Position numbers and translations under genes: made by a program | Notes under the pieces: generated by a model | The model's input: the letters and a program-made list of their open reading frames with translations, nothing else | The model's database searches: none | Told to the model about the DNA's origin: nothing | Assembly (NCBI GenBank): GCA_947628135.1 | Contig: CANQYT010000011.1 | Location: 1 to 64,000 of the forward strand | Length of the DNA: 64,000 bases | Reading direction: 5' to 3' | From: an uncultured Clostridia bacterium | GTDB lineage: Bacteria > Bacillota > Clostridia > Christensenellales > CAG-314 | Part shown: positions 2,464 through 63,829 of the stretch, piece by piece | Numbering within the stretch: position 1 is the stretch's first letter | Layout: each line of letters begins with the position of its first letter

Positions 2464-5400
2464 TTACTCCGTGCGCAAGGCGACGACGGGGTCTTTCTTG
2501 GCGGCGCTGCGAGAGGGGATAAGCCCCGACAGCATTGTCAGCACCACGCTGATAGCCACCAATATCGCCGCCGCGCCGATGGGCAGCACCGCGTTCAGAT
2601 CGGGTATCATTGTTACGGCGTGCAATATCAGATTGATGGGAATGGTAAGCAGATACGTGACAAGCACTCCCAACAAACCTGCGGCAAAGCCTATGATGAT
2701 GGTTTCGGCGTTGAACATACTCGAAACGTCCCTCTTGGACGCGCCGATCGCGCGCAATATACCAATTTCCTTGGTGCGTTCCTGCACGGATATAAGCGTA
2801 ATTACGCCTATCATTATCGAACTGACGATGAGGGAAATTGCCACAAACGCTATCAATACGTAGGTGACGGCGTCAATAATAGTTGTGACGGCAGACATCA
2901 CAAGGGCGACGAGGTCGGTGTACTGAATTTTTTCCTCCTCGTTGTCGCGAGAGTCGTTGTACTTTTCTATTTCGTCGGCAATTACGTCCTTTGCCGCAAA
3001 ACTCGTGGCATAGATACTCACTCCTACGGGCGTGTTGATATCGACGTTGGAAAGCAGCGCCAGATTGCCCTCGTAAGTGGCGGAGGACATCTGTTCATTG
3101 TCGTAGTAGACGGCTATCTGATCGTCCGTCTTGCCGGAAAGCGCGCCATCCAATTCGCCCTTCTGCTCCTCTTGCGGCAAATTGTTGAATTCCTGCCGCC
3201 GCTGATTCAAGCTGTTGGCAAAGGACACTAACATCATCTTTGTCTGTCCGTCGGGAATTGTGTCCGTTTTCCCCGCCTGCGCAAGTTTCACCATAGACAC
3301 CATTTGCGAGCGAATAAAGTTGAGAATCTGTTCGTCGGTTTTTCCCGCAAAAAAGGACAGCATAGTCGACTCGTTCATATTCATAGCCTCCGCCAATTGC
3401 TCCGCAACAACTTGGGCGAGAGTCTTGTCCTCGGTCACTTGCGACTTTATCATAGTGATGAGGGGTTCGACGGAATCCAACCGCTGAATATTCCAATAGG
3501 CTTCCCGCTTGTTGTCGAAACTCAACGCTTCGTAGTACGCCCTGAAAGCATCCGCTTTGCTTGCGTTGTCGGCGTTAACGTCGCCGAGGATACCGAACGC
3601 TTTGCCGCTGAAAATATCCACGTCGGGTCTGCTCTTTTGCTCTATTACGGCGGGGGTGCCCTCGGAACGCGTTATCATATATTCCGTAAGCGCCGAAGTG
3701 TAGGCGATAGAGCCCGTGTGAAGAATGGATGTGGACTCGTCTTTTGCCCATACGATACCGGAAATTTCGATGGGGACGCTAGCGTCTTTGTCGTCGAAAA
3801 GTTCCTGCAATTTGTAGGGTTGGGCGTGGTCGCCTTCCGTTATGTCGTACCAGATACCGTCGGCGGCGGGCGCATAGAGATAGCCGTTGAGTATCATACG
3901 GCAGTCGGTTTTCATTATGTCGTCGAAACTCCACGAGCGAAGATTGGACTTGTCGGGGGCTTTTCCGCTGTCAACGTCGGCGTACAGTTGGTCAAGATAG
4001 TCGTTGCCCAACAATCCCAGCGTAACCAACGCCATATCGCTCACTTCCATATTTTTGTTTACCACAAGCACGGCTTGATTGTACTCTTTGGGCCACTCGC
4101 CGTAAATTTCGTATTGATCTTTTATCAATTGGTTGACGAAACCGCCGTCGGGATCGGCAAGCATTTCCTGCCAGATGTTCATAGAAAACCGCGCCATAGA
4201 TTGCATATAGCCGCCCATAGCCGACTGAATGTTGCTGCCCAACAGACGGGGAACTATCTCGTTCATTTTCTTGGAGACGCTGGCTTCTTCCACGTTGCCT
4301 TCCACCGTCTTGGAGAACACCCTCATATCCGCGTCGTATTGGTACTGAACGCCCGCAACGGCTTCGTGCAGCGCTCCGCCCTCTTTTATCGCGTTGTCAA
4401 GGTATTCTTCTTTGAAGGTTTTCAAATCGTTGGATATGCCGACCGAACTCTTGATGACGTTGGCAACGTTGTAAATAAGCGTGCTGTTGTAAACGGTGTG
4501 TTCTTCACGATCGGGGTTGCCGTTTTTGCTGTCCTCGCTGTCGATGTTGTTCATCATCGTACTTACCAGACTTGACAAGTCCATAGCCGTGGATTCTATC
4601 GTGAGGGGGTAACTCGCAAGCGTTCGTTCCTCGGTGATGTGAATGTAGTTGGTCGTTCCCTGGCTTACGGCAAGTATCAAGGCAATGCCTATTATGCCGA
4701 TGCTGCCCGCAAACGAAGTTAGCACCGTACGCCCTTTCTTGGTGAACAAGTTGTTGAGAGACAGTTTGAACGCCGTCCAGAAAGACATAGAAGAACGCTT
4801 TTTCTTTGGTTTGCGCTTCTTGGCGGGGGCGGCGGTTTTGCCGTCCGAAGCGTCCTGCGCCGCCTCGACGGGCTGTTCGTCCGCATTGGCGCGTTCTTCC
4901 GCTTGTTTTTCCGCGGCGTATTCCTCTGCGGTAAGAGGAGCGCTGTCACCCACTATCACCCCGTCCAGAATGCGGATAATGCGCGACGAATACTGTTCGG
5001 CGAGTTCTGGGTTGTGAGTGACCATAATTACCAAACGGTCGCGGGACATTTCTTTGAGAAGTTCCATTATCTGAATGCCCGTTTCCGTGTCCAGCGCGCC
5101 CGTGGGCTCGTCCGCGAGAATTATGTCGGGGTCGTTGACGAGAGCGCGCGCTATCGCTACGCGCTGCATTTGTCCGCCGCTGAGTTGGTTGGGACGTTTG
5201 TTTATATGTTCCCCCAAGCCCACCTTTTTCAACGCTTCTTCGGCGCGAGGTTTGCGCTCGTTAAGCGGAACGCCCGCAAGAGTAAGCGCCAATTCGACGT
5301 TTTTGAGTACCGTCTGGTGGGGGATAAGATTGTAAGTCTGAAACACAAACCCTATCGTATGATTGCGGTAGGTGTCCCAATCGCGATCCTTGTAGTTTGT

Positions 5401-29524: not shown

Positions 29525-29553
29525 TTGCAAAAAAACAATTTATACTGTATAAT
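29525..29553 (+). promoter_or_regulatory. Strong sigma-A type promoter for the tRNA-Pro locus
   Basis: TTGCAA - 17 bp - TATAAT. Confidence 0.7.
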
Positions 29554-29562
29554 AGTAACGCA

Positions 29563-29583
29563 ATCGAGGTGTAGCGCAGTTGG
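29563..29583 (+). pseudogene. Truncated 5' end of tRNA-Pro (direct repeat)
   Basis: ATCGAGGTGTAGCGCAGTTGG identical to 29824-29844, then diverges. Confidence 0.8.
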
Positions 29584-29825
29584 GGTACGCGTTAAGCAAA
29601 CACCACGGTGTGGTGTTTGTAGCAAGTACCCACGAGAGCAACGCTCGAAGTGCGGAAGCAAAAGGGTCCCCACAAGGTGTCTGCACCGCGTGGGAGAGGA
29701 GCGACCGAGCCATCAGCGGTACTGACAGTGCTTGCACTGTTGGTGCTGACAAGCGAGGGTAGCGACGACGGCGCTACCAACTGCTATCAAGCAGATAATA
29801 ATATTCAGAAAAATAAATTTTATAT

Positions 29826-29901
29826 CGAGGTGTAGCGCAGTTGGTAGCGCGCTTGGTTCGGGACCAAGAGGCCGCTGGTTCGAGTCCAGTCACTTCGACC
29901 A
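29826..29901 (+). tRNA. tRNA-Pro (anticodon CGG), CCA encoded
   Basis: Acceptor CGAGGTG/CACTTCG, D arm GCGC/GCGC, anticodon arm CTTGG-TTCGGGA-CCAAG, T arm GCTGG-TTCGAGT-CCAGT, 3' ACCA. Confidence 0.95.
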
Positions 29902-29902
29902 A

Positions 29903-29991
29903 GTGGGCGGACATTCGCCTTTATGTTGCAACGGAAAGGGAGCAGAAAACTGCTCTCTTTTCCATTGCTGTCTTTTGGCTCGTCCGCCCAC
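29903..29991 (+). other. Nested inverted-repeat element immediately 3' of tRNA-Pro
   Basis: Outer GTGGGCGGAC/GTCCGCCCAC perfect 10-bp stem; inner GGAAAGGGAGCAG-aaaa-CTGCTCTCTTTTCC. Confidence 0.7.
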
Positions 29992-30072
29992 GGGCAAGTG
30001 ACCGGACAGTTCGAAATATGTAGCGCTCCGCAATGTTACACATTGCTCCGCTTACTCCCACTGCGTGGGAGA

Positions 30073-30091
30073 CGAGTCCAGTCACTTCAAC
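30073..30091 (+). pseudogene. Truncated 3' end copy of tRNA-Pro (direct repeat)
   Basis: CGAGTCCAGTCACTTCAAC matches 29881-29899 at 18/19. Confidence 0.75.
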
Positions 30092-30819: not shown

Positions 30820-33800
30820 TCATTGTTGTTTGTATCCCCACTCAACGGGGCGGTTGTCGGGATTCCAAGAACTATCCCAAGTAGAGGGTTGCTGTTCTGC
30901 CTCACAACAGATTGTCAATTGAGTGCAACCCTGAAAGGCATACGCGCCTATGCTTGTTACCGTACTTGGAATTGTTATTTCTGACAAGTTACTGCAATCG
31001 AGGAAAGCGGAGCCACCTATACTTTGTAATTGGCTGTCACCGTCAAAAGTTACCGTTCGCAACTTACTGCAACCGTTGAAAGCGTAGTTACCTATGCTTG
31101 TGACAGTGCTTGGAATTGTAATCGACGTTATGTTGCCGAAACAGTAAAATTGATAATCGCCGATTTTTTCGATGCCTTCGGGAATTTCAATTTCAGTCAC
31201 CTCTTTCCATTCGACACCCTGTTTCATAAAGAAGTGGTCGGCATAGTACATCGGGTTGGCACCCTTATCGCCAAACTTAATGCCGCACCAATCTCCGATT
31301 GTGCCGCCGTAGTAGACATCTTGCAGACCGTTGCAACCGCGGAAAGCGTAGTAGCTTATGCTTTGCAATTGATTGCCCTCAAATGTTACCGTTTGCAAAC
31401 TACTGCAACTGTCGAAAGCGTAGGAGTTTATGCTTGTTACCATACTTGGAATTGTTATTTCCGTCAAATTACTGCAACTGTCGAAAGCGGAGTAGCCTAT
31501 GCTTTGCAATTGACTGTCACCCTCAAACGTTACCGTTTGCAAACTGCTGCAACCGTAGAAAGCGCGTTCGCTTATGCTTGTAACAGTGCTTGGAATTGTT
31601 ATTTCCGTCAAATTGTCGCAACCGCGGAAAGCATAGCTGCCTATACTTTGCAATTGACTGTCGCCCTCAAACGTTACCGTTTGCAAACTGCTGCAACCGT
31701 TGAAAGCGTAACCGGGAATAGACTTTACGTTATCCCCTATCACAACTTGTGTTAAAAGCGAGCAGCCATCAAATATTGAAGCGCTGTAACCACCGGCCTT
31801 TTCGCAATTGACAGCGTTCCAATACACCGTATTCAATTGACTGCAACCCTGGAAGGCATACGCGCCTATGCTTGTTACCGTACTTGGAATTGTTATTTCC
31901 GTCAAATTGCCACAACCGTAGAAAGCGTATTCGTCTATGCTTTGCAATTGACTGTCACCCTCAAATGTTACTGTTTGCAAGTTGGTGAAATTGCAGAAAG
32001 CGCGACTCCCGATTTTTGAAACAAGATACTGCCTTCCTTTAAATTCCACATTTTGCAGAATCGTAACTTGTGCAGGCAATTTGACTGTTGTGTTTGCCAC
32101 GATTGCCGTATTGTCGTTATGTAACACATATACAACCCCACCAATCGTTGTACTACCACAACAATTCCACACAACGGGGCGTTTTTCGTAGTTCCAACTT
32201 TTGTTCCAGCCGCTCGGTTCGCTCGTAGCCTCGCAATAAATTGTCAATTGACTGCAACCCCAGAAAGCGGACTCGCCAATGCTTGTTACCATAATTGGAA
32301 GTGTGATTGATGGCAAATTGCTGCAAGCGCAGAAAGCGTTGTTGCCTATGCTTTGCAATTGGCTATCGCCATCAAACGTTACTGTTTCCAAATTGCGGCA
32401 ACCGCTGAAAGCGCGTTCGCCTATGCTTGTAACAGTGCTTGGAATTGTAATCGACGTTATGTTGCCGAAACAGTAAAATTGATAACTTCTTATAATTGTG
32501 ACGCTTTCGGGAATTTCAATTTCAGTCACCTCTTTCCAATCGTCACCCTGTTTCATAAAGAAGCGGTCGGCATAATACATTGGGTTTGCACCATCACCGC
32601 TAAACTTAATGCCGCACCAATCTCCGATTGTGCCACCGTAGTAGACATCTTGTAGACCGTTGCAACCGTTGAAAGCGTAGTAACCTATGCTTTGCAATTG
32701 ATCGCCCTCAAAGGTTATCGTCTGTAATTTATTGCATTGTCTAAAAGCATATTGGTCTATGCTTGTTACCATACTTGGAATTGTTATTTCCGACAATTTG
32801 CTGCAACCGCTGAAAGCGCCGTCACCTATGCTTTGCAATTGACTTTCGCCCTCAAACGTTACCGTTTGCAAATTGGTGCAATCGTTGAAAGCGTAGTTGT
32901 CTATGCTTTGCAATTGACTGTCGCCCTCAAACGTTACCGTTTGCAAATTACCGCAATCGCCGAAAGCGAAGTAGCCTATGCTCGTGACCGTGTTTGGAAT
33001 AACAATTGATGTAAATCTATCACAACCGTAGAAAGCGCTTTCGTCTATGCTTGTACCGCCCGTGATAACAACTTTTTTGAGAGAGGTCGGAACGCTTGTT
33101 TTGTTTGCTTTGTAATCTTTCGCGCCGAAAATATACCCAAAGTGTGTAGCACCCGAGCCGTCGGCTTTTTGTCCCGCAAAGGGCAACGTAATACTATCCA
33201 AACTGTTACAACCGTAGAAAGCGGAGTTGCCTATACTCGTAACCTTACTCGGAATTGTTATTTCCGTCAATTTGCTGCAACCGCTGAAAGTGTATTCGCC
33301 TATGCTTTGCAATTGGTTACTCTCAAATGTTACCGTTTGCAAACTGACGCAATCGGAGAAAGCGGAGTTGCCTATGCTTGTAACAGTGCTTGGAATTGCG
33401 ATCGACGTTAGACCGCTATTGCAAAAAGCGGAGTTGCCTATACTCGTAACTTTACTCGGAATTGTTATTTCCGTCAATTTGCTGCAACTGCTGAAAGTGT
33501 AGTTGCCTATGCTTTGCAATTGATCGCCCGCAAACGTTACAGTTTGCAAATTACTGCAACTGTCGAAAGCGTAATTACCTATGCTTGTGACTGAACTTGG
33601 AATTACAACTGACGTCAACTGACTGCAATCGCTGAAAGCGTTGCCGCCTATACTTTGCAATTGATCGCCGTCAAGCGTTACCATTTGCAAATTGCTGCAA
33701 CCGCTGAAAGCGTAGTTACCTATGCTTTGCAATCGACTGTCGCCCTCGAACGTTACCGTTTGCAAACTTCTGCAATACCGGAAAGCGTGTTCGCCTATGC

Positions 33801-35643
33801 TTGTAACAGTTCTTGGAATTGTTATTTCCGTCAATTTGGTGCAATTGTAGAAAGCGTAGTTGCCTATACTTTGTAATTGACTGTCACCCTCAAACTTCAC
33901 CGTTTGCAAACTACTGCACCAGTCGAAAGCCTCGTTACTTATGCTTGTAACAGTGCTTGGAATAGTTATTTCCGTCAAATTGCTACAACCGTAGAAAGCG
34001 TCGTTACCTATGCTTTGCAATTGACTGTCGCCCTCAAAAGTTACCGTTTGCAAGTTGCTACAACCGTAGAAAACGCGTTCGTCTATGCTTGTACCGCCCG
34101 TTATAGCAACTTTTTTGAGAGAGGTCGGCACGTAACTGCTGTTGTAGGAATAATTACTCGCTCCGAAAATATACCCGAAGTGTTTAGCACCCGAGCCGTC
34201 GGCTTTTTCTCCCACAAACGACAGCGTAATGCTCTGCAAACTGTTGCAATCACGAAACGCGCCGCTGTTTATACTTGTAACATAGTTCGGCACAACAATA
34301 TCTGTGACGACACTATCTTTTACGCCCGTAATCGTACACGTCGTGGGCGTAGATGTAAATTCAATTGAAGATAAGGGTTCGTCCACTGCCCAAGTTGCCG
34401 TGTAGGTTGTGCTTTTGGCGGGCATATCAAAGGCGTACACAAGTTCGTCCGAAACAAGGCTTTCGCCCTCGTACCAACCCAAGAAGTTATAACCCAAATT
34501 GGTGGTCGCCGTTAGCGTTACGCTGTTGCCGTAGGTAAAAGTTCCGCCGCCCTGTACAGAGCCGCAAGCATTGCCGCTAACTTCAACGCCCAAGGTGTAG
34601 TCGTTTATTTGCCAATGTGCTTGAAGTTGCACGTCGTCGGCTATGTTCCACGCTTCTATGTTGGTGTTTGTGCCGTCGGTTATTTCCTCCTCGCCGTTGT
34701 ACCAACCCAAAAAGGTGTGACCCTCGCGAGTGGGCGTGGGCAAGGTGAACTCGCTGTCGTAACTGACGGAGTACTGCGTTTGGTTGAGGCTGTCGCCGTC
34801 GTTTACGTCCAAAGTGACGTTGTAGTTGTTGGCTGTGGCGTCGGCATACAGATCCAGCGACGCCCACAACGTTTGCGTTACATATTGTTGCTCTTCACCG
34901 TCGCGCCAACAATTGAATGTGTAGCCCGTAAAGTCGGGAGTCCACTCCGCTTGCACCTCGTTGCCCGTGTAGAACTGTTGGGTGCGGACGACGGAATTTT
35001 TGAAGTGGTAACTGATTTGCGTTAAATAACTGCGGTGAATGGTTATCGTGTAAACGCTGATAAGGCTTGGGTCGAGTTGAGACGAAACCACTATGTAAAA
35101 GGTGTTGTCGCCGTTGGCAAGTTGACCGTCCTTTTGCGTGGCGACCTTGGAGTTGATTACGTCGTTGCCGATTTTGTCGTAGGAAAGCGTCCAGAGGCAA
35201 CCGTCGCTTACCTTGACCATTTGCGCAAGCGGCACGTCGGAAACAGTCGGCTCTACCAACATAAAGATGTTGAGACCTTGTATTTGACCGTTTTGCACTT
35301 CCAACACCGACGCACCCGGCTGCGCGCGCGTGTAACCGCACACGTCGCACTCGTTGTCGTTGCCGAAAACGTGTTGACCCATTTCGCTTTTTTCGGAATG
35401 TCCGCAATCTGCGTCGTGCCAATGGTAGTCGTCATCGCTGCTCCACGCCTCGGCAAAAGTATGCTGATGATCGCCGCCTGTGCCACTACCTGTACCTGTA
35501 CCGCCACCTGTGCCTGTACCGCCGCCGTCGGGCGTTTGGGGCAATTGCGGCTCGTCGTTGGGATTGCAGGCAGCAAACGTCATTGCCGTCGCAACAAGCA
35601 CGACAAGCAAAACCGCAAGCGCAATTTTCCAAATTCTTTTCAT
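30820..35643 (-). CDS. BspA-like leucine-rich-repeat surface lipoprotein with InlB-like B repeats (about 1607 aa)
   Basis: Start at MKRIWKIALAVLLVVLVATAMTFAAC (lipobox) after AGGAGG; Gly/Thr linker; repeats GYTFNCWRDGEEQ/GHTFLGWYNGEEE/GYNFLGWYEGE; many copies of LTEITIPSTVTSIGNYAFYGCSNLQTVTFEGDSQLQSIG. Confidence 0.95.
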   Translation of the reverse strand: MKRIWKIALAVLLVVLVATAMTFAACNPNDEPQLPQTPDGGGTGTGGGTGTGSGTGGDHQHTFAEAWSSDDDYHWHDADCGHSEKSEMGQHVFGNDNECDVCGYTRAQPGASVLEVQNGQIQGLNIFMLVEPTVSDVPLAQMVKVSDGCLWTLSYDKIGNDVINSKVATQKDGQLANGDNTFYIVVSSQLDPSLISVYTITIHRSYLTQISYHFKNSVVRTQQFYTGNEVQAEWTPDFTGYTFNCWRDGEEQQYVTQTLWASLDLYADATANNYNVTLDVNDGDSLNQTQYSVSYDSEFTLPTPTREGHTFLGWYNGEEEITDGTNTNIEAWNIADDVQLQAHWQINDYTLGVEVSGNACGSVQGGGTFTYGNSVTLTATTNLGYNFLGWYEGESLVSDELVYAFDMPAKSTTYTATWAVDEPLSSIEFTSTPTTCTITGVKDSVVTDIVVPNYVTSINSGAFRDCNSLQSITLSFVGEKADGSGAKHFGYIFGASNYSYNSSYVPTSLKKVAITGGTSIDERVFYGCSNLQTVTFEGDSQLQSIGNDAFYGCSNLTEITIPSTVTSISNEAFDWCSSLQTVKFEGDSQLQSIGNYAFYNCTKLTEITIPRTVTSIGEHAFRYCRSLQTVTFEGDSRLQSIGNYAFSGCSNLQMVTLDGDQLQSIGGNAFSDCSQLTSVVIPSSVTSIGNYAFDSCSNLQTVTFAGDQLQSIGNYTFSSCSKLTEITIPSKVTSIGNSAFCNSGLTSIAIPSTVTSIGNSAFSDCVSLQTVTFESNQLQSIGEYTFSGCSKLTEITIPSKVTSIGNSAFYGCNSLDSITLPFAGQKADGSGATHFGYIFGAKDYKANKTSVPTSLKKVVITGGTSIDESAFYGCDRFTSIVIPNTVTSIGYFAFGDCGNLQTVTFEGDSQLQSIDNYAFNDCTNLQTVTFEGESQLQSIGDGAFSGCSKLSEITIPSMVTSIDQYAFRQCNKLQTITFEGDQLQSIGYYAFNGCNGLQDVYYGGTIGDWCGIKFSGDGANPMYYADRFFMKQGDDWKEVTEIEIPESVTIIRSYQFYCFGNITSITIPSTVTSIGERAFSGCRNLETVTFDGDSQLQSIGNNAFCACSNLPSITLPIMVTSIGESAFWGCSQLTIYCEATSEPSGWNKSWNYEKRPVVWNCCGSTTIGGVVYVLHNDNTAIVANTTVKLPAQVTILQNVEFKGRQYLVSKIGSRAFCNFTNLQTVTFEGDSQLQSIDEYAFYGCGNLTEITIPSTVTSIGAYAFQGCSQLNTVYWNAVNCEKAGGYSASIFDGCSLLTQVVIGDNVKSIPGYAFNGCSSLQTVTFEGDSQLQSIGSYAFRGCDNLTEITIPSTVTSISERAFYGCSSLQTVTFEGDSQLQSIGYSAFDSCSNLTEITIPSMVTSINSYAFDSCSSLQTVTFEGNQLQSISYYAFRGCNGLQDVYYGGTIGDWCGIKFGDKGANPMYYADHFFMKQGVEWKEVTEIEIPEGIEKIGDYQFYCFGNITSITIPSTVTSIGNYAFNGCSKLRTVTFDGDSQLQSIGGSAFLDCSNLSEITIPSTVTSIGAYAFQGCTQLTICCEAEQQPSTWDSSWNPDNRPVEWGYKQQ

Positions 35644-35829
35644 AGTGTGCCTCCTGTTTGAATTTTCAACAAAAAAAGTGCCGTCCCTATCGAAACGGCA
35701 CTTGTAGATGTGTGTCCCGATAGTTACCACACTACTATTTCCCAAAAACTTGCGCTATGGAAACGACACACCAATCTACCGATAGATTGTGCGCAAATTT
35801 TTGGAAATATTAAAATAGTAATGTGGTAA
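35644..35829 (-). promoter_or_regulatory. Structured 5' leader (candidate attenuator/riboswitch) of the BspA-like gene
   Basis: Long imperfect hairpin 35724-35755 / 35791-35829, internal CAATCTA-TAGATTG hairpin, complementary GTGTGTC/GACACAC segments, then an intrinsic terminator before the RBS. Confidence 0.65.
35671..35703 (-). terminator. Intrinsic terminator inside the leader
   Basis: Minus strand AAGTGCCGT-ttcgataggg-ACGGCACTT followed by TTTTT. Confidence 0.85.
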
Positions 35830-63358: not shown

Positions 63359-63829
63359 ATGAATGACACAGAAAGTTTAGCACATACGACGTGGAATTGC
63401 AAGTACCATATAGTGTTTGCGCCCAAGTATAGGAGAAAAGTGTTTTATGGAGAAAAGCGTAGAGAGATTGGAGCAATTCTACGTCAGTTGTGCGAATGGA
63501 AAGGAGTAGAAATAATAGAAGCAGAAGTGTGTCCCGATCATGTACACACGTGTGTAAAGATACCCCCCCCCCAAATGAGTGTTTCGGGATTTATGGGATT
63601 TTTGAAAGGCAAAAGCAGCGTAATAATATACCAAAAATTCGGAAATCTCAAATTTAAGTACAGAAACAGAGAGTTTTGGTGTAGAGGGTATTATGTCGAC
63701 ACAGTCGGCAAGAATACGAAAAAGATAAAAGAATACATAGCGAACCAACTTAGCGAGGACAAGCGAATGGAGCAAATGACAATATATGAGATAAACGACC
63801 CGTTTGCGAAAGACAAACTGGTTCACTAA
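63359..63829 (+). CDS. tnpA: IS200/IS605 Y1 transposase TnpA
   Basis: NCKYHIVFAPKYRRKVFYGEKR, CPDHVHTCVKIPP (HUH-type), FMGFLKGKSS, YYVDTVGKNTKKIKEYIANQ. Confidence 0.95.
   Translation: MNDTESLAHTTWNCKYHIVFAPKYRRKVFYGEKRREIGAILRQLCEWKGVEIIEAEVCPDHVHTCVKIPPPQMSVSGFMGFLKGKSSVIIYQKFGNLKFKYRNREFWCRGYYVDTVGKNTKKIKEYIANQLSEDKRMEQMTIYEINDPFAKDKLVH

Follow-up and report, generated by a model that had tools for sequence, protein, structure and literature searches.

Structured non-coding units at both ends of tRNA genes, apparently a large family in one order of gut bacteria

What places a copy of a tRNA gene's own 5′ end ahead of the gene and a copy of its own 3′ end behind it? The question is raised by tRNA-Pro(CGG) (29826-29901), which tRNA model searches identified as the sole tRNA gene of the window, i.e., the 64,000-nucleotide stretch of an uncultured Clostridia genome analyzed here (contig CANQYT010000011.1, positions 1 to 64,000). 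A first-pass annotation had described duplicated ends of this gene at offsets of 261 and 192 bp, and sequence comparison confirmed them: 29563-29583 is identical to 29824-29844 (21/21; offset, 261), and 29881-29899 matches 30073-30091 (18/19; offset, 192). Its claim that 20 to 21 nucleotides (nt) of the 5′ end were copied holds as a repeat but not as the unit, which corresponds to tRNA-Pro nt 1-19 (29565-29583), the additional AT being common by chance. With a probability of about 0.6, we consider the two inserts to belong to one family of non-coding, highly structured mobile elements (about 130 to 330 nt) that target the ends of tRNA and transfer-messenger RNA (tmRNA) genes. The family is large and apparently undescribed, and in one order of gut bacteria it occupies many tRNA genes and also tmRNA genes.

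The limits of the copies are exact. The 5′ copy ends at G19, and the 3′ copy begins at C56 in the T-loop. G19 and C56 pair with each other at the elbow of tRNA, so each copy is bounded by one member of that pair. Both inserts fold more stably than shuffled sequences (z = -4.9 and -7.2; 0 of 200 shuffles as good), and no convincing open reading frame (ORF) was found among those of the window units, in agreement with what the first-pass annotation had stated. Two features were absent from that annotation: a 14-nt segment of the 5′ insert that is perfectly reverse complementary to the intact D-arm (29771-29784 versus 29837-29850), and the related elements across the genome and the order.

The body of the 3′ unit was also found behind other tRNA genes of the same genome, followed by a copy of the local tRNA 3′ end. 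A covariance model of the 3′ unit (R1; window match at 29994-30090, E = 1.9e-22) gave 13 strong matches (E < 1e-9) in this genome, which has 42 tRNA genes in total; all 13 lie behind tRNA genes (11 different tRNAs), and nearly all then show that tRNA's own 3′ end. Among 297 genomes of the order, 20 contained R1 matches, 15 of these belonging to the window's genus. A catalogue for the genus comprises 87 arrangements of tRNA, unit, and copy at about 20 anticodons, the copy being mostly identical (18/18) to the local tRNA; a few of its rows are tandem tRNA-Glu repeats or fragments, while nearly all are genuine units. Because the same arrangement, with the local tRNA's own end, recurs at dozens of other tRNA genes, the tRNA-end duplications are not due to chance. 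When species differ in an orthologous tail, the copy tracks the local tRNA, and copies remain 18/18 although the unit bodies diverge. An alignment of 20 to 21 units revealed a common layout (i.e., a terminator-like nested hairpin, an anti-arm, a GAAAT(AA)TGTAGCGCTCCGC core that contains two helices, then either GGGA or GAGA, and finally the copied tRNA end), and whole units span 130 to 334 nt. The exact core pattern occurs in 46 stretches of named genomes, 42 of which are from uncultured gut Clostridia (rabbit, chicken, roe deer, and others). Candidatus Fimimonas merdipullorum is among these named genomes, and its NCBI placement in Myxococcota looks wrong.

Comparisons among relatives revealed the empty sites for which the first-pass annotation had proposed a search, along with further copies. 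At tRNA-Pro(CGG), locus L009 has the 3′ unit and the copy while locus L019 has none (offset, 192 versus 0), and the sequences downstream are identical at 119 of 120 bases. In L019, moreover, a promoter comparable to the one ahead of the window's 5′ copy is joined directly to the intact tRNA-Pro gene, with no 5′ insertion between them. At tRNA-Met, the 25 bases that follow the copy in the window's genome (L058) directly adjoin the tRNA in L083 (25/25). Units occur in tandem on both sides of genes, and their presence varies between close relatives. The units at tRNA-Val(CAC) and tRNA-Ser(CGA) have bodies that are 79% alike, although the tail copied in each matches the respective local tRNA at 21/21 positions. 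On a tree of unit bodies, the isotype label changes 37 times, whereas shuffled labels give 48.4 changes and 19 is the fewest possible; the observed value, below that of shuffled labels but far above the minimum, suggests that units are partly inherited with their tRNA and partly change tRNA.

For the 5′ unit, an alignment of 11 units yielded a fold of four helices, in which 11 of 32 pairs show compensatory changes. In helix P1 the copied GCAGTTGG pairs with CCAACTGC, and in one relative a G-to-A change in the copy is accompanied by a C-to-T change in the guide, with pairing kept. A model of this unit (R2) matches the window at 29566-29684 (E = 8.6e-18). Within the genus and family it detects units ahead of tRNA-Ala, -Thr, -Gly, and -Pro(GGG) genes, and in other families ahead of Pro, Ala, Thr, and Lys tRNA genes, the units bearing each gene's own 5′ end; antisense or far-end matches lie at the 3′ ends of Ser, Arg, Asn, and Gly tRNAs and at two tmRNA genes. 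In the 24 units with a local tRNA, most 5′ copies are perfect, and 21 of the 24 hold the reverse complement of the local D-arm spanning G19/20. Of the 396 genomes searched within the order, 52 gave R2 matches; 398 from outside it, in the same phylum, gave none. The bias of G-U versus A-C pairs, used as an indicator of the functional strand, gave discordant signals: the R2 alignment favors the core strand; over 55 cores, the P2 hairpin points in the opposite direction, with one A-C position dominating the count; and in helix B of the 3′ unit neither strand is favored.

Are the two types related? Large 3′ units hold a 5′-type core on the opposite strand, and in the window's genome 7 of 9 R2 matches overlap opposite-strand R1 matches, in 3′ units and relatives. 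Thus, from the outside to the gene, both types consist of the copied gene end, core, complementary segment, spacer, and intact gene. Judged by these sequences, 5′ and 3′ units seem to be one family in mirror image, directly so for the large 3′ units, of which the small ones are presumably shortened relatives. A structured sequence of about 110 nt (module M) occupies the same relative position within 5′ units and 3′ units alike (window 29660-29769; L016, L096, L166, and L080), and perhaps alone at L191. Some units (L002 and L146) are interrupted or followed by members of a different structured repeat family (CCCGGGGATGCCGGGGGTA..GGGAGACCCCGGCGAAAG). The parts of the window locus are collected in Table 1.

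Table 1. Parts of the tRNA-Pro(CGG) locus in the window and the basis on which each was assigned.
Feature	Position	Strand	Remarks
Promoter-like site TTGCAA-17-TATAAT	29525..29553	+	10/12 consensus matches; now upstream of the 5′ tRNA copy
Copy of tRNA-Pro nt 1-19	29565..29583	+	contains GCAGTTGG, which forms the 5′ strand of helix P1
5′-unit core, helices P2 and P3: GCGTTAAGC - hairpin - TAGC ... GAGC hairpin	29584..29659	+	fold alignment
Extra structured module M	29660..29769	+	large units only; replaces the short P4 loop
Guide-like segment GCGCTACCAACTGC	29771..29784	+	D-arm of the intact tRNA in reverse complement, spanning insertion point G19/20
AT-rich spacer of the 5′ unit	29785..29825	+	sequence reading; relatives with the same layout
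Intact tRNA-Pro(CGG)	29826..29901	+	tRNA model searches
First part of the 3′ unit: nested hairpin whose inner stem (29934-29964) resembles a terminator	29902..29990	+	terminator reading by inspection
Anti-arm (helix A), imperfect complement of the tRNA 3′ end	29996..30015	+	folding and unit comparison
Conserved core GAAAT(AA)TGTAGCGCTCCGC, helices B and C, ending ..GAGA directly before the tRNA copy	30013..30072	+	
Copy of the tRNA-Pro 3′ end from C56	30073..30091	+	sequence comparison

Farther along the window, a 1,641-amino-acid (aa) reading frame (30820-35745, minus strand) looks, from its sequence, like a BspA-type leucine-rich-repeat surface protein.

On the basis of what can be read directly from the genomes (i.e., layout, copies, empty sites, tandem units, fold, local complementarity, and the opposite-strand core), we infer both the mobility and an RNA function of the units. 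Insertion itself would make the duplication, comparable to a target-site duplication of roughly 20 bp that extends from the gene end to the tRNA elbow, and this duplication would keep the tRNA intact, so that the insertion is tolerated. The complementary segment may recognize the target by pairing, or may be copied from the target during insertion, and would then close the element's own stem; 3′ units would also bring a terminator. Because no enzyme is encoded in the units, a recombinase acting in trans is assumed to mobilize them. We tentatively suggest that the units may constitute a novel class of small mobile elements. Through a segment that is complementary to the tRNA gene and spans the insertion point, such elements would recognize or copy their target, enter tRNA and tmRNA genes at one end or the other, and duplicate the sequence as far as the elbow.

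Several observations weigh against mobile elements directed to tRNA gene ends. Transposition itself was not observed, and the genomes are metagenome-assembled genomes (MAGs) or other assemblies in which units are frequently located at contig ends. No autonomous copy or enzyme was found, nor any autonomous relative among the loci read. The clustering of isotypes implies that much of the distribution is inherited rather than the result of fresh jumping. In small 3′ units the anti-arm pairing is partial (mean longest run, 5.7 versus 4.1 with foreign tails), and these units are tied to the 5′ type solely via the large 3′ units. Finally, some R2 cores lie away from tRNA genes, including on phage contigs, which indicates that tRNA ends are a favored but not the sole site.

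Among the cores away from tRNA genes, a 265-bp non-coding repeat in genome G268 that contains the same core is 95 to 99% identical at three unrelated loci (L283, L284, and L285), and is the best candidate for a recently active copy. The 5′-type core was also detected on three viral contigs (L303, L304, and L305), one of which (L303; 5.3 kb) has it twice between genes (1270-1316 and 4274-4321). No tRNA was found on these three contigs and no 3′ core in any viral contig, and a phage-borne origin was rejected on these grounds. A BLAST search of both window units against phage and plasmid records returned no match.

The units might instead be miniature satellites of tyrosine-integrase islands, i.e., minimal attP cassettes moved in trans by a resident integrase with crossover in the T-loop (3′) or the D-loop (5′). 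The T-loop, where the 3′ copies start (C56), is a known crossover subsite of tRNA islands (PMC4383910) and is the site at which phage Ms6 integrates (PMC1762012), whereas the D-loop, where the 5′ copies end (G19), is absent from the listed subsites, namely the anticodon loop, the T-loop, and a junction subsite (PMC4383910). Tyrosine recombinases or phage integrases are present in nearly all of these genomes, one of them adjoining tRNA-Pro(GGG) in the window's genome, but the units themselves contain none. In addition, an attP with a foreign tail would yield a chimeric tRNA gene, which is at odds with copies that almost all match their own tRNA, and such integrases need neither a junction-spanning complement nor a conserved multihelix core. 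We therefore regard satellites of this type as an unlikely, if serious, explanation.

Somewhat less probable is that the units are cis-acting RNAs, i.e., tRNA leaders and trailers that control processing or level, with copies that sequester or mimic tRNA ends and with spread being secondary. The P1 change described above, in which copy and guide compensated after insertion, speaks for this, as does the constancy of the copies beside diverging bodies. The promoter-like site, from which a transcript would begin near the copy, traverse the 5′ unit, and enter the tRNA, and the terminator-like hairpin of the 3′ unit would also fit, although a simple terminator scan of that region scores stems other than 29934-29964 only. 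Regulation of the adjacent tRNA does not readily account for presence that varies among close relatives, for a 5′-type core that is antisense to the tRNA at 3′ ends, or for cores away from tRNAs and on phage contigs.

Mobilization as REP-like repeats by a resident IS200/RAYT-type (Y1) transposase appears very improbable. An IS200-type Y1 gene does lie in the window (63359-63829; 156 aa), and others occur near or inside some units; those inside 3′ units of the same genome (L116 and L117) look like later insertions. Moreover, four genomes that bear units (G006, G008, G013, and G014) have no Y1 match, assembly gaps being possible, and IS200-type elements are not known to make a target duplication. 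Degraded tandem tRNA genes, which the first-pass annotation had raised, or assembly artifacts, to which short repeats and frequent contig ends in MAGs might point, are extremely improbable, given bodies that match no tRNA model, covariation, precise insertion boundaries and empty sites in relatives, and a layout that recurs in independent rabbit, chicken, and deer assemblies.

Other candidates were rejected individually. RVT_1 had no match in the window's genome or in most of the genus, which removes mobilization by a resident reverse transcriptase. In Rfam, tRNA alone exceeded the gathering score, the unit bodies matching no other family, so that neither a self-splicing intron nor a hammerhead or other known ribozyme was retained; attC-type sites were discarded because their box is not conserved.

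If mobile elements are indeed responsible, selfish or regulatory DNA can live at both ends of highly conserved genes without breaking them. Should the target-complementary segment guide insertion, the units would amount to a new insertion system guided by pairing, of which nature already provides examples at many different targets. They would also serve as new leaders and trailers for tRNA genes across an order of gut bacteria, and could affect tRNA supply.

No description of these elements was found in the literature searched, which did not extend to subscription papers, but several known systems resemble them in part. The first-pass annotation's reading of an insertion with duplicated ends is supported by the empty sites, while the parallel that it implied with ordinary tRNA-integrating islands is not. 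Islander tDNA islands, which require an integrase, are 2 kb or more in length and displace 3′ (3,760) or 5′ (159) fragments (PMC4383910), share with the units the displaced gene-end fragment, the restored intact gene, the 3′ and rarely 5′ fragments, tandem arrays, and tmRNA targets. Unlike such islands, the units have no integrase and measure 130 to 334 nt; a single family occupies about 20 types of tRNA gene, with the matching end copied at each, and combines a D-loop boundary with a target-complementary segment and a conserved fold. REP/BIME sequences with RAYT (Y1) transposases are likewise short non-coding hairpin repeats thought to be mobilized in trans (PMC2817692); the units differ in showing no Y1 dependence, sitting at tRNA ends, and bearing a target copy. 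Like bacterial miniature inverted-repeat transposable elements (MITEs), they are small, non-autonomous, and hairpin forming, with a direct target duplication and a known empty site; in contrast to MITEs, they have no constant terminal inverted repeats (the stem arms being target sequence that varies with the local target), no autonomous parent that we found, and a duplication of about 20 nt set by the tRNA end and elbow. The RNAs of two further systems, IS110 bridge RNAs and group I introns, use guide pairing with their targets. The units possess neither a recombinase nor an intron core and have no Rfam match, but they resemble these systems, without being members of them, in having, within their own sequence, a stretch complementary to the target on both sides of the insertion point.
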